Source of the DNA: Erysipelotrichaceae bacterium
Lineage (GTDB): Bacteria; Bacillota_I; Bacilli_A; Erysipelotrichales; Erysipelotrichaceae
Length of the DNA: 41,896 bases
Direction of reading: 5' to 3'
Assembly: GCA_017459795.1 (NCBI GenBank)
Contig: JAFUCG010000002.1
Span: 1-41,896 of the forward strand
This document shows positions 19,520-24,728 of the stretch, one piece after another. Below the pieces are notes generated by a model. The model was not told the DNA's origin. It made no database searches and worked only from the letters and a program-made list of their open reading frames with translations. Numbering within the stretch: position 1 is the stretch's first letter; each line of letters begins with the position of its first letter. The position numbers were made by a program, and so were the translations under genes.

Positions 19520-19675
19520 ATTAGTACCTCCTGGTAAGCCCTTAAATTATACATTGAAACAGTCATATTCGCAAACTCGTTAGTAATCAGGTTGTATATT
19601 CTTTTTTTAAAGGGAAAAAAAGAATGAAAGATAATTATTAAGATTGTTAAAATTTTAAAAAAAGGAGATTATACA

Positions 19676-20594
19676 ATGGATAATGATGTACAGAAAGTAT
19701 TAAACAGAATGACGGGGAATTCAGATATACTGACAAAAAAAGTATTTCGATTCGTTAGCCATAGAGATGAGAATAATAAATTCAGATCTGGCAGATGTAA
19801 ATTTTGATTTTTTTGGAAACAAGCCTCCTTTCCCAATCATGATGGGTGTAATAGGTGGATTTACACATCTGGGTGAAGATGCAAGCTATAAGGCAGCTTT
19901 AGCAGCCAGGGAACTTGGAATCGTATATTGGGTCAGCAGTCATACTTCGGATGAGGACTTAAAAAGACTTGTGGAAACAGGAGCTATGATTGGAATAGTC
20001 ATCAAGCCTTTCAAGGATCAGCAGTATTACCTTGACAGGATTAAGAAGGCCGAAGAAATGGGTGTATGTGTCATCGCTTCTGACATTGACCACGCTTATA
20101 ATAAGAATGGCGGTTATGATGGTCAAAGAGACGATGTAATGGGCCCTAAGAGTTTTGAAGAGCTTAAGGAAGCAGCTGCTTCAACTAAACTTCCATTCAT
20201 TGCCAAGGGCGTATTAAGTGTTCATGATGCCTTGTTATGCAAGGAGGCAGGTTTAAGTGGTATAATTCTTTCTCATCATCACAACATCATGTCATCAGCC
20301 GTACCACCAGTTATGATCTTACCGGAAGTAAGAAAGGCTGTTGGTAATGATTTCATGGTAATGGTTGACTGTGGCGTTAACGGTGGGGCAGAGGCCTTCA
20401 AGGCCATTGCGCTTGGTGCAGATGCGGTATTGACAGCTCGTGGCTACATGGCACCTCTGGCTAAGGAAGGAACAGAAGGAGTAGTTCAGCACATTACCAA
20501 GATGGCGGGTGAATTCAGAGAATTCATGAATAGAACAGGTTCACTTGATCTGAAGCATATAGACAGTTCAGTCATTCATAAGATGCCATTCTAA
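19676..20594 (+). pseudogene. FMN-dependent alpha-hydroxy-acid oxidase family gene, frameshifted at an A7 run
   Basis: The well-marked start is the ATG at 19676, after AAAAGGAG. Its frame runs 22 codons to TKK and then enters A7 (19735-19741), after which it goes wrong and stops at 19807. With one A fewer it would continue as KKYFDSLAIEMRIINSDLADV into the long frame from 19767, giving about 305 residues. YFDSL.IEMR.I is typical of the family, so the break is real in this sequence. The remaining 275-residue frame shows IAKGVLSVHDALLCKEAG, an LSHHH active-site segment and GADAVLTARGYM, the FMN-phosphate region of lactate/glycolate-oxidase-like enzymes. The ATG at 19767 has no ribosome site. 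It may be a pseudogene, a phase-variable gene, a case of slippage, or a sequencing error. Confidence 0.78.
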
Positions 20595-20608
20595 GTGTAG
20601 TTAATCAG

Positions 20609-20631
20609 CCCAGACAATTGTCTGGGTTTTC
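20609..20631 (+). terminator. Terminator after FMN-enzyme gene
   Basis: CCCAGACAATTGTCTGGG is a perfect palindrome followed by TTTTC. Confidence 0.82.
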
Positions 20632-20680
20632 TATCTATAGAAATAAGGATATAATACAAATAATATAAAGAGGGACTTTT

Positions 20681-21967
20681 ATGAACTACGCTATAATAAA
20701 CGCTAATCTTTTAAATGGAACAAGGAATATGGAAGTACAGAATGACGTTACTATTCTGGTTGAAGGTAATGTTATAAGGAAAATAGGACAGGACTTAAAG
20801 ATACCTGATGGATATAAGGTCTATAACCTCAGTCATAAGTATCTGATGCCTGGCTTGATCAACATGCACGTTCATTTGTTTGGTACAGGCAAGCCTAGTA
20901 AAAACATATCAGGCGGACCTACCCAGAAATATGTCATTAAGTTCATTAAGACAGGTTTGGGCAATGTAGTATTAAACAAGATCGTTGAAAGAGATGCCTT
21001 GTTGGCTCTTAACTCCGGAACAACTACCATAAGGTGTGTCGGTGACTTTGAATACGCAGATGTAAAGTTAAGAGACAGAATCAATAAAGGTGAAATAGTC
21101 GGGCCTAGAATGATTGTTTCAGGACCAGCCTTAACGGTCACTCATGGTCATGGTGACGGCACTTTTGCGATAGTCTGTGACAGTGAGGAAGCAGCCAGAA
21201 ACCAGGTCAGAAAGAATCTGAAAAACGGTACGGACTTCATTAAGATCTGTAATACCGGTGGTGTAATGGACTCAACCGAAAAGGGTCACGCCGGGATACT
21301 AAGAATGCCAATTGAGATAACAAAGGCGATAGTTGATGAAGCACACAAGGCTGGTGTAATAGTAGCATCTCATACAGAAAGTACTGAAGGGGTTAAGCAG
21401 GCTTTGGAAGCTGGAGTTGATTCAATTGAACATGGTGCACCAATGGATGAAGAGATCATTAAGATGTATAAGGAAAAGGGAAGCTTTGTTACATGCACGA
21501 TTTCTCCGGCTTTGCCTATTTCAAAACTGGATTCTGAATTGACTAAGATGACAGATATCCATGTATATAATGGTAAAATCGTTGCTCAGGGAATCATCGA
21601 CAGTGCCAAACAGGGTGTTGAAAATGACATATCTGTTGCCCTGGGAACAGATGCGGCCTGCCCGTTTGCGATGCAGTATAACATGTGGAGAGAACTTGTT
21701 TACTTCAAGCAGAATGTCGGAGTTGATAACCGCTTTGCCTTATACAGTGCCACATTAAATAATGCCAGACTGTTGAAGATGGATGATAAAATCGGTTCTA
21801 TTGAAGAAGGAAAACTGGCTGACATGATCGTTACTGACAATAACCCGCTTGATGACTTAAGAACTCTTAAGGACGTAAGAATGGTATTTGTGAATGGCAA
21901 TGTCATAGAGCATCCTGCTGTAAAGAAGTTTGAAGACATTGAAAAAGAACTTGATAAGCTTATTTAG
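20681..21967 (+). CDS. Metal-dependent amidohydrolase (COG1228-like, prolidase/imidazolonepropionase type)
   Basis: The 428-residue protein has a complete binuclear amidohydrolase set: HVH (His63, His65) in PGLINMHVH, a lysine likely carboxylated (Lys188 in FIKICNTGG), His231 in ASHTES, His251 in IEHGAP and Asp324 in GTDAACP. The C terminus has the usual GSIEEGKLADMIVTDNNPL return to the small beta domain. This resembles Xaa-Pro dipeptidases and related peptidases of the amidohydrolase superfamily, but the substrate cannot be read from sequence. There is no signal peptide. AAAGAGGGA precedes the ATG. It lies between two terminators and is a single-gene unit. Confidence 0.87.
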   Translation: MNYAIINANLLNGTRNMEVQNDVTILVEGNVIRKIGQDLKIPDGYKVYNLSHKYLMPGLINMHVHLFGTGKPSKNISGGPTQKYVIKFIKTGLGNVVLNKIVERDALLALNSGTTTIRCVGDFEYADVKLRDRINKGEIVGPRMIVSGPALTVTHGHGDGTFAIVCDSEEAARNQVRKNLKNGTDFIKICNTGGVMDSTEKGHAGILRMPIEITKAIVDEAHKAGVIVASHTESTEGVKQALEAGVDSIEHGAPMDEEIIKMYKEKGSFVTCTISPALPISKLDSELTKMTDIHVYNGKIVAQGIIDSAKQGVENDISVALGTDAACPFAMQYNMWRELVYFKQNVGVDNRFALYSATLNNARLLKMDDKIGSIEEGKLADMIVTDNNPLDDLRTLKDVRMVFVNGNVIEHPAVKKFEDIEKELDKLI

Positions 21968-21991
21968 AAGGCCTTAATGACCTTCTTTTTT
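21966..21991 (+). terminator. Terminator after amidohydrolase gene
   Basis: AGAAGG and CCTTCT arms enclose a nine-base loop and are followed by TTTTT. The stem overlaps the stop codon. Confidence 0.75.
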
Positions 21992-22065
21992 GTGAGAATT
22001 ATTAAAAATGTCTCAAATGTACTTAATAATGTCTTAACATATGGAAATAGTGTTATTTTTTCTAA

Positions 22066-22071
22066 TATAAT
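22066..22071 (+). promoter_or_regulatory. -10 box (TATAAT) of HD gene, near-leaderless arrangement
   Basis: TATAAT is followed by nine bases (AAAAGCACT) and the ATG at 22081; there is no Shine-Dalgarno sequence. No good -35 box is visible. Confidence 0.5.
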
Positions 22072-22080
22072 AAAAGCACT

Positions 22081-22545
22081 ATGAAACTGAAAGAAGAAGA
22101 TTACAGATTCATTAAAAATGAATTAAATGAATATCTTAACCACCCGGAAGTCCAGAAGATGAAGGGGTATGTGGCTCATGGCCGTAAGACTCTTTACAGT
22201 CACTGTCTTTCAGTTGTCATAACAGCGTACAAGATCAACAGGCAGTTCAAACTGAATGCCAATGAGCATACCCTACTGGTAGGGGCCTTATTACATGATC
22301 TGTACTTATATGACTGGCATGACTATCCTCTTAACTGGAACATATTCAAGATGCATGGTTTCACTCATCCTGAGGCAGCCAGAAAGAATGCCGAAAGAAT
22401 ATTCAATGTTGACGAGGATATTCAGAGTGTAATTAAATCGCACATGTGGCCACTAACATTACGAAGCTTTCCTAAGTCAAAGGAGGCAGCCATCGTATGT
22501 CTGGCCGATAAATTAGTAGCAACAAGGGAGACACTCAGAAGATGA
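22081..22545 (+). CDS. Small HD-domain protein
   Basis: The 154-residue protein is an HD-domain metal phosphohydrolase by motif: His41 (LYSHCLSV), His72-Asp73 (ALLHDLYLYDWHDY), His in GFTHPEAARKNAERIF, and the late ADKLVATRE. Unlike signalling HD proteins, it has no other domain. Its substrate is unknown. The start lacks a ribosome site and may be leaderless. It overlaps the next gene by 4 bases, so the pair is translated together. Confidence 0.83.
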   Translation: MKLKEEDYRFIKNELNEYLNHPEVQKMKGYVAHGRKTLYSHCLSVVITAYKINRQFKLNANEHTLLVGALLHDLYLYDWHDYPLNWNIFKMHGFTHPEAARKNAERIFNVDEDIQSVIKSHMWPLTLRSFPKSKEAAIVCLADKLVATRETLRR

Positions 22546-23195
22546 TTTGGGTTTATGTTTTATACTTTTTCATACTAAGCTACGTCGGTTATGTATATGA
22601 AACCATCGCCATGACCTTATGGGGTGGCAAGTGGGAAAACCGTGGCTTTTTCTATGGCCCAATCATTCCAATCTATGGGGCAGGAGCATTAGGTGGAACA
22701 CTGTTATTTACTTACATTATGCCACATCATACCATGATGCAGGTCTTCTTTATCAGCATGTTTGTCAGTGCCGTTCTGGAGTATGTTGTTCATTATGTAT
22801 TGGAAAAACTATTTAATCAGGTATGGTGGGATTACTCCAAGTCAATTTTCAATCTGAACGGCAGAATCTGTCTGCCGGCATCGATCGGCTTTGGCCTGGC
22901 AGGGGTACTGATCATTTACTTCATCAATCCGTTCTTATTAAGCTATCTGGCATCTTTAAACCGCATGAAGGTATTCTGCGTTTCAGTAGCCTTATTACTG
23001 ATATTCATTGAAGACTTCAACCTGACCATCATGAAGCTTAAGGGTAAGGTTGGAAAGTTTGATCACAGTTATCAGCACCTTAACGATTCAATGGAGCGAT
23101 TTACCGGCAAGATCATAAATGAAGACATGGCTTTAAGCAGGCCGGTATACAAGGTGTTTGACATGATCGATCACCGCACTAGATCAGCTGAATAA
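22542..23195 (+). CDS. Putative ABC-transporter type IV (CmpB-like) membrane protein
   Basis: The 217-residue protein fits the family Pfam names ABC_trans_CmpB: N-terminal FFILSYVGYVYETIAM, WENRGFFYGPIIPIYG, VLEYVVHYVLEKLF and WWDYS...FNLNGRICL, with five or six membrane segments before a soluble tail of about 50 residues. No ATP-binding component is nearby, so the transporter label is weak; function is not established. Overlap with the HD gene (ATGA) suggests the two work together. Confidence 0.83.
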   Translation: MIWVYVLYFFILSYVGYVYETIAMTLWGGKWENRGFFYGPIIPIYGAGALGGTLLFTYIMPHHTMMQVFFISMFVSAVLEYVVHYVLEKLFNQVWWDYSKSIFNLNGRICLPASIGFGLAGVLIIYFINPFLLSYLASLNRMKVFCVSVALLLIFIEDFNLTIMKLKGKVGKFDHSYQHLNDSMERFTGKIINEDMALSRPVYKVFDMIDHRTRSAE

Positions 23196-23209
23196 TAATG
23201 TTAAACGAT

Positions 23210-23232
23210 ACTGCCTCAGGGCAGTTTTTTTG
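23210..23232 (+). terminator. Terminator after CmpB-like gene
   Basis: ACTGCC, loop TCAG, GGCAGT and a run of seven T. Confidence 0.88.
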
Positions 23233-23324
23233 TTTCCTTTCAAAATCTCCTTTTTACTAAGTCAAAACTAGAACTGATGGCTTATATGAACAAAAGTATA
23301 ATGACAGCGTAAGGAAGGATAATA

Positions 23325-24683
23325 ATGAATAGAAAGAACATAGATTTAACAGAAGGTAACATAATATCTGTTCTGATTGCCTTTGCGGTTCCCCTTTTCA
23401 TAGGGCAGTTATTTCAAACACTGTATCACAGTGTGGATTCAATTGTTGTTGGAAACTTTGTCAGTTCAGACGCATTGGCAGCCGTAAACGCATCCACTTC
23501 AATATCAAATACTCTGGTAGGCTTTTTTACTGGATTATCTGCCGGTGTTGGTGTTGTATTTGCAAATCATTTTGGAGCAAAGAATTATACAAAACTCCAT
23601 GAGGCAATTCAGACAACCATGACTTTTACCTTAGTAAGCGGCATAGTTGTAGCACTTATCGGTGTTGTATTTGCCAGACAGTTTCTGATTCTGCTTAAGG
23701 TTGATCCGGAAATCATGGATTCTGCCGTTTCATACTTAAGAATATACATGTTTGGTGTATTGTTTACTGCCATATACAATGTTGGCGCCAGTGTCGTAAG
23801 AAGTGTCGGTGACAGTGTCAGCCCGTTTTATCATCTGGTAATAAGCAGTGTGGCAAACATCATTCTTGACTTGCTGTTTGTGGCCGTATTCAAGTGGGGC
23901 GTCAATGGCGTAGGAATCGCTACCGTCATTGCGCAGTTCATTTCCGTAGTACTGGTATTCATCAGAATGATGAACATTGATGAGAGGTATGGCCTGGACA
24001 TTAAGGACCTGCACATTGACAGTGCTACATTAGGTGAAGTTCTTTCACTGGGCTTACCTGCAGCCATCCAGTCAAGCATTACATCAATAGGTAACATATT
24101 TACTCACCGTTATATAAACGGCTTTGGGAAAGCCGCTACGGCAGGATTACCAACCGGCCAGAAAATAGACCAGTTTGCCCAGCTTGCCTGTAAGGGCGTC
24201 GGTTTAGCCATTCCTACATTCATTGCTCAGAATATCGGCGCCAAGAAGTATGACAGAGCCATAAAAGGCGTTAAGATATCAGTCTGGTTGGTTATGGCAT
24301 TGACAGTCATTCCAGGGTTTGCGGTTTACTTCTTTGCTCATCCATTAGCCAGGATCTTTACTCCTGATGAAGAGGTAATAAATGTCATTGTCGGATTCCT
24401 GCATACCGTAATGCCGTTATACGCCTTCATGGGCATGCATCAGGTATTCTCCGGCATCAACAAGGGATTCCATGAGGCTAAGTTTGATATGATAAACAAC
24501 ATTTTCTCAATGGTAATCGTAAGACAGTTATGGCTGGCATTATCATTGAAAGCCAACCATGTAATTGAAAACATCTTCTGGTGTTACCCGATAACCTGGG
24601 CGTGCGCCGGCATCATCGGCTGGCTGTATTATGAATTCAGGGTCAAGAAGAAGATAAAAAAATTAACAGAGTTAAGCAAATAG
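23325..24683 (+). CDS. MATE family efflux transporter
   Basis: The 452-residue protein has the MATE layout with about twelve membrane helices: N-terminal ITPL-like segment LIAFAVPLFIGQLFQTLYHSVD, VVGNFVSSDALAAVN and NIGAKKYDRAIKG at the start of the second half. MATE carriers export cationic compounds or drugs against Na+ or H+. Substrate and ion cannot be deduced. TATAAT at 23297-23302 and AAGGAAGG before the ATG mark its own promoter and ribosome site. A terminator follows, so it is a single-gene unit. Confidence 0.9.
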   Translation: MNRKNIDLTEGNIISVLIAFAVPLFIGQLFQTLYHSVDSIVVGNFVSSDALAAVNASTSISNTLVGFFTGLSAGVGVVFANHFGAKNYTKLHEAIQTTMTFTLVSGIVVALIGVVFARQFLILLKVDPEIMDSAVSYLRIYMFGVLFTAIYNVGASVVRSVGDSVSPFYHLVISSVANIILDLLFVAVFKWGVNGVGIATVIAQFISVVLVFIRMMNIDERYGLDIKDLHIDSATLGEVLSLGLPAAIQSSITSIGNIFTHRYINGFGKAATAGLPTGQKIDQFAQLACKGVGLAIPTFIAQNIGAKKYDRAIKGVKISVWLVMALTVIPGFAVYFFAHPLARIFTPDEEVINVIVGFLHTVMPLYAFMGMHQVFSGINKGFHEAKFDMINNIFSMVIVRQLWLALSLKANHVIENIFWCYPITWACAGIIGWLYYEFRVKKKIKKLTELSK

Positions 24684-24702
24684 TTTTCCTTTCTATTTTT
24701 TG

Positions 24703-24728
24703 GACTACGATAAAACGTAGTCTTTTTT
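24703..24728 (+). terminator. Terminator after MATE gene
   Basis: GACTACG, six-base loop ATAAAA, CGTAGTC and TTTTTT. Confidence 0.88.

Follow-up and report, generated by a model that had tools for sequence, protein, structure and literature searches.

What happens to a gene whose reading frame changes at a short run of A residues close to its start codon? We addressed this question at a locus near the middle of the window, by which we mean the whole 41,896-base contig analysed, part of a 212-contig draft genome (G000). The frame opened by the ATG at 19676 reads MDNDVQKVLNRMTGNSDILTKK, continues as VFRFVSHRDENNKFRSGRCKF and stops at 19805-19807, after 44 codons. A second frame, which contains KKYFDSLAIEMRII... 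and KKYFDSLAIEMRIINSDLADVNFDFFG..., remains open to 20594. The sequence at the junction is ACA AAA AAA GTA. The locus has the following features:

19664..19668, plus strand: Shine-Dalgarno-like GGAGA, recognised in the sequence 7 nt 5' of the ATG at 19676
19676..19807, plus strand: first frame, 44 amino acids, with conserved N-terminal residues 1-22 followed by out-of-frame residues and a stop
19735..19741, plus strand: A7 run at which the frame changes, from codon 20 (last base) through codon 22
19740..20594, plus strand: second frame, the remainder of an FMN_dh-family gene, 284 amino acids and a stop
19767..20594, plus strand: ORF of 275 amino acids from an internal ATG, with no visible Shine-Dalgarno site and unlikely as the native start
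20607..20628, plus strand: terminator-like hairpin 3' of the gene with a T-rich tail (one found; shuffles gave a mean of 0.5, sd 0.9)
19577..20667, no strand: segment left unmatched by blastn in the sister genome G001, with borders as drawn by blastn

The second frame matched the Pfam family FMN_dh (PF01070) with 166.6 bits against a gathering score of 24.9, which bears out the assignment to the FMN alpha-hydroxy-acid oxidase family made in the first-pass annotation. Five NCBIfam models also matched the protein but each scored far under its cut-off, so that no finer name is justified. The shared Pfam match and the fold modelled for an intact relative (L026) liken the gene to the FMN-dependent alpha-hydroxy-acid oxidases and dehydrogenases (glycolate oxidase, 4-hydroxymandelate oxidase, L-lactate oxidase). 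Judged by its sequence, it is a member of a short, divergent FMN_dh subgroup of about 305 residues, whereas the solved single-domain members have about 360-380, and SHHHN stands where 4-hydroxymandelate oxidase has SNHGG in the alignment. Alpha-hydroxy-acid oxidase activity relies on a catalytic His and on a substrate-binding Arg shortly after it. In the alignment with a solved chain, a His is present and the Arg of the solved chain aligns to a gap. The AlphaFold2 model, built for L026 rather than for the broken product of the window (mean pLDDT 82.2, pTM 0.85, alignment of 4 sequences), predicts an FMN-type TIM barrel whose best solved matches are glycolate oxidases, with query TM values of 0.81 and 0.83 against the human and spinach enzymes (2w0u and 1gox, respectively). 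The position of the A7 run falls within the second helix of this model (16-26), and the 44-residue peptide read from 19676 would be without the barrel.

The two frames belong to one gene, displaced at the A7 run as had been proposed. The gene of L026, from the Erysipelotrichaceae MAG RGIG2494, reads through in a single frame (MADNDYQTVLNRMAGNADVMTKKYYDSLAIEMRLV...), and the 20 residues encoded 5' of the run in the window (DNDVQKVLNRMTGNSDILTK) are identical to it at 14 of 20 positions. None of 100,000 shuffles of these residues reached 14 matches (maximum, 8). Relatives that read through without a change of frame (L026/L031, L036 and L027) align to both halves. L036 and L027 resemble L026 at the N-terminus and have GNSD in frame there, the first 89 residues of L019 are likewise similar, and the distant copies L003, L033 and L005 have different N-termini. 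Further, the second frame differs from L026 at 67, 44 and 186 first, second and third codon positions, respectively, over 283 codons. What exceeds chance is the conservation on either side of the run in different frames, and not the run itself.

The same comparisons place the start of the gene. Reading the ATG at 19767 as the native start, with the upstream frame irrelevant, would account for the 275-residue ORF and would leave in place the strands predicted in the intact relative from residue 44 onward, but at the cost of the model's helices 6-13 and 16-26. No Shine-Dalgarno site is visible before this ATG, the residues upstream of it are conserved and the relatives' starts lie upstream as well. 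Because intact relatives have the two halves in a single frame, and one of them matches the N-terminal residues at 14 of 20 positions, 19767 is not the native start, and we regard this reading as scarcely credible. The start favoured in the first-pass annotation, at 19676 with its ribosome site, is preceded by GGAGA at 7 nt and followed by the conserved residues, and a GGAG-type site also precedes the starts of the five relatives listed. The alignment it called for showed conservation before the equivalent of 19767 in these relatives, rather than proteins beginning there with nothing conserved upstream. For annotation, the 275-residue ORF is the remainder of a broken gene and not an enzyme with a start of its own.

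A run of A near a start codon with the frame broken there is also what homopolymer contingency loci look like. In a phase-variable gene of this kind, the length of the run would shift at a high rate and toggle the enzyme on and off. The run of the window differs from such loci in being short and not conserved in relatives. Among 30 loci, the 19 other copies that could be scored, most of them distant and from another genus (g48), all have A5 or less at the run position; the remaining 10 were unscored because the motif was not found (four) or because no ORF carried the expected motif (six). In the closest copies the longest stretch of A is five (L026) and three (L019). The conservation of the run by which a phase-variable locus is recognised was thus not seen in the 19 scored copies, nor was a conserved slippery run found among them. 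Runs of this length are ordinary in G000, as 375,000 sampled bases contained 85 runs of exactly seven A or T, six of eight and one of nine. In addition, 122,712 coding bases of G000 that aligned unbroken to G001 contained 11 sense-strand A7 runs and one A8. The A7 run is, then, not unusual in this genome. To our knowledge, metabolic enzymes are not the usual type of switched gene. We consider phase variation improbable, and the locus lends it no support. In the window as a whole we counted 15 runs of at least seven A or T, five of them close together in the roughly 210 bases around the gene start (19602-19814).

A homopolymer at the junction could also restore the frame in a fraction of products, by transcriptional slippage or +1 ribosomal frameshifting, so that the A7 gene would still give some full-length enzyme. 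G000 does carry a +1 frameshift gene, as follows:

L082 (G000:C173:42000-45000): prfB with CTTTGAC, a +1 frameshift site

Frameshifting of the prfB type takes place at a stop codon. There is no stop codon where the frame of the FMN_dh gene shifts, in contrast to prfB, and the junction reads ACA AAA AAA GTA rather than CTTTGAC. A -1 shift would run into a stop within six codons, and RNA structure downstream of the junction was unremarkable (z -0.41), a result that led us to reject structure-assisted recoding. As for slippage during transcription, one transcriptome study describes single-base deletions in runs in Buchnera, unlike in E. coli, that increase with run length (PMC5574713). The same study gives slippage in A and T runs as mainly adding a base, in-run deletions in E. 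coli as rare and no error as having restored the frame (PMC5574713). From nine bases on, selection against slippage can be seen in a large proportion of genomes (PMC1088944). A slippage site would be expected to have a run of about that length in A or T, conserved together with the frame change; the run of the window is an A7 that is not conserved at the site. Recoding is therefore the more improbable of the two, and very improbable in itself, and the evidence does not support a conserved site for switching or recoding. The suggestion of phase variation or polymerase slippage in the first-pass annotation thus found no support, on three counts: the scored copies do not conserve the run, genes with an unbroken frame contain A7 as well and slippage in A and T runs mainly adds bases (PMC5574713).

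With the frame broken at codons 20-22, ribosomes starting at 19676 halt after 44 codons. Because the second frame is free of stops over 284 codons, the break is either recent or not real. The main rival to a recent break is an error of assembly or sequencing, in which living cells carry an intact gene and the run is wrong by one base in the consensus. The host genome is a draft of 212 contigs, the remainder of the gene is open and the GeneTack authors expect an isolated frameshift validated by BLASTp to be a sequencing error and not a genuine indel (PMC3711429). Frameshift-like breaks were found in 2 of 165 query-subject pairs when G000 was compared to G001 and in none of 169 in the reverse comparison, so some errors or young pseudogenes are particular to G000. 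These two breaks, however, lie near a contig end and outside runs, whereas the break of the window is in mid-contig, and the sense-strand runs in unbroken coding sequence described above argue that A7 runs are not generally mis-assembled. We judge an error at the run to be possible, and to be taken seriously, but short of probable. The two other breaks map to positions of about 750 and 4,910 in L083 (G000:C173), both less than 5 kb from the beginning of the contig. One is a difference of a single base and the other of two bases, in each case outside long runs. The ORFs affected are one that looks by eye like a sigma factor and another without a name.

We favour, with moderate confidence, the reading of the locus as a single FMN_dh-family gene broken at the A run, most likely a dispensable gene that has recently become a pseudogene. 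Ordinary replication slippage at the run would have broken the frame, in a bacterium that can presumably do without the gene, so that the loss of a dispensable gene may be under way. The break would then be real in cells and no active protein would be made. Young pseudogenes whose frame is broken in a short run of A have the same single break, the same open remainder and the same absence or breakage in several relatives, and we found no difference from them.

Comparison with the sister species (G001, whose PrfA is 99% identical) showed that the gene is absent at this site there. G001 aligns to the window with 94% identity up to 19576 and 90% from 20668, and has 91 bases in place of 1,091. The 91-base spacer bears a weak resemblance to the leader of the gene, at a score that 37 of 2,000 shuffles reached, and its score against the trailer was reached by 1,652 of 2,000. 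The gene may have been lost from G001 or gained in G000. Among the nine genomes compared in the genus, several of which are only 68-89% complete, a close copy was found only in G000 and G007, with weaker matches in G001 (37% identity) and G005 (26%). A search of G000 at E 0.001 found no second close copy. In G006 and G007 the sequence from about 19580 to 24728 is missing at the site and prfA adjoins the next conserved stretch. The region 19580-24728 of the window is thus variable, since G001 also lacks there, besides the FMN_dh gene, the gene at 23325-24683. Family-wide, 28 of 272 genomes had a match at a strict cut-off of 1e-60, below which the G007 copy scores. At the 34 places listed, a stop inside the gene occurred only at that of the window and a short open frame only at that of G188, which indicates that the wider subgroup is generally intact.

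Four copies have at least 60% identity (those of the window, G007, G188 and G173), and three of the four are broken, each differently, which speaks against an error confined to the window. The G007 copy (L019:1203-1472, in G007:C119) lies elsewhere in its genome and ends after 89 codons, at a point 1.2 kb inside a 7.7-kb contig. After codon 89 it joins the end of a short frame, as if by deletion, and this short frame had no relative among the loci compared. The copy in RUG14120 (L029:2965-3342; by contig number and position G188, also G061) has 125 codons against about 305, with an in-frame join at the short, 6-base match AGCGGC. In both G007 and G188 the break may reflect a chimeric join in a draft assembly. 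RUG14120 belongs to the same genus (g3) as RGIG2494 (G173, also G060), where the close copy is intact and which also has an intact copy of 57% identity.

As a control, we searched 11 genomes (G000-G008, G173 and G188) for copies of three neighbouring genes at E 0.001 and at least 60% identity. Of 11 copies in all, one in G003 ran off the end of its contig and was left out, and the other 10 were unbroken. The contrast of three of four with none of 10 (Fisher p 0.011) is weak. The numbers are small, and choosing the window for its break makes the comparison partly circular. With the window's own genes removed it became two of three against none of seven (p 0.067), and adding the intact 57% copy of G173 gave three of five broken (p 0.022). 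An earlier control with a stricter E value, covering 33 to 100% identity, found one internal stop in 23 copies but was biased against short fragments and was not relied on.

The diversity of these states (frame break, internal deletion, truncation and outright absence) raises the alternative that the FMN_dh-family gene is under repeated, gene-specific loss in this bacterial family, a reading we hold to be unlikely. If true, it would point to conditions in which the product is costly, and repeated breakage, if real, would mark the subgroup as one whose activity may be costly or tied to a niche. In G004 we also observed, at G004:C57:813-2138, a homologue of the gene at 23325-24683 with 43% identity and one TAG inside the match.
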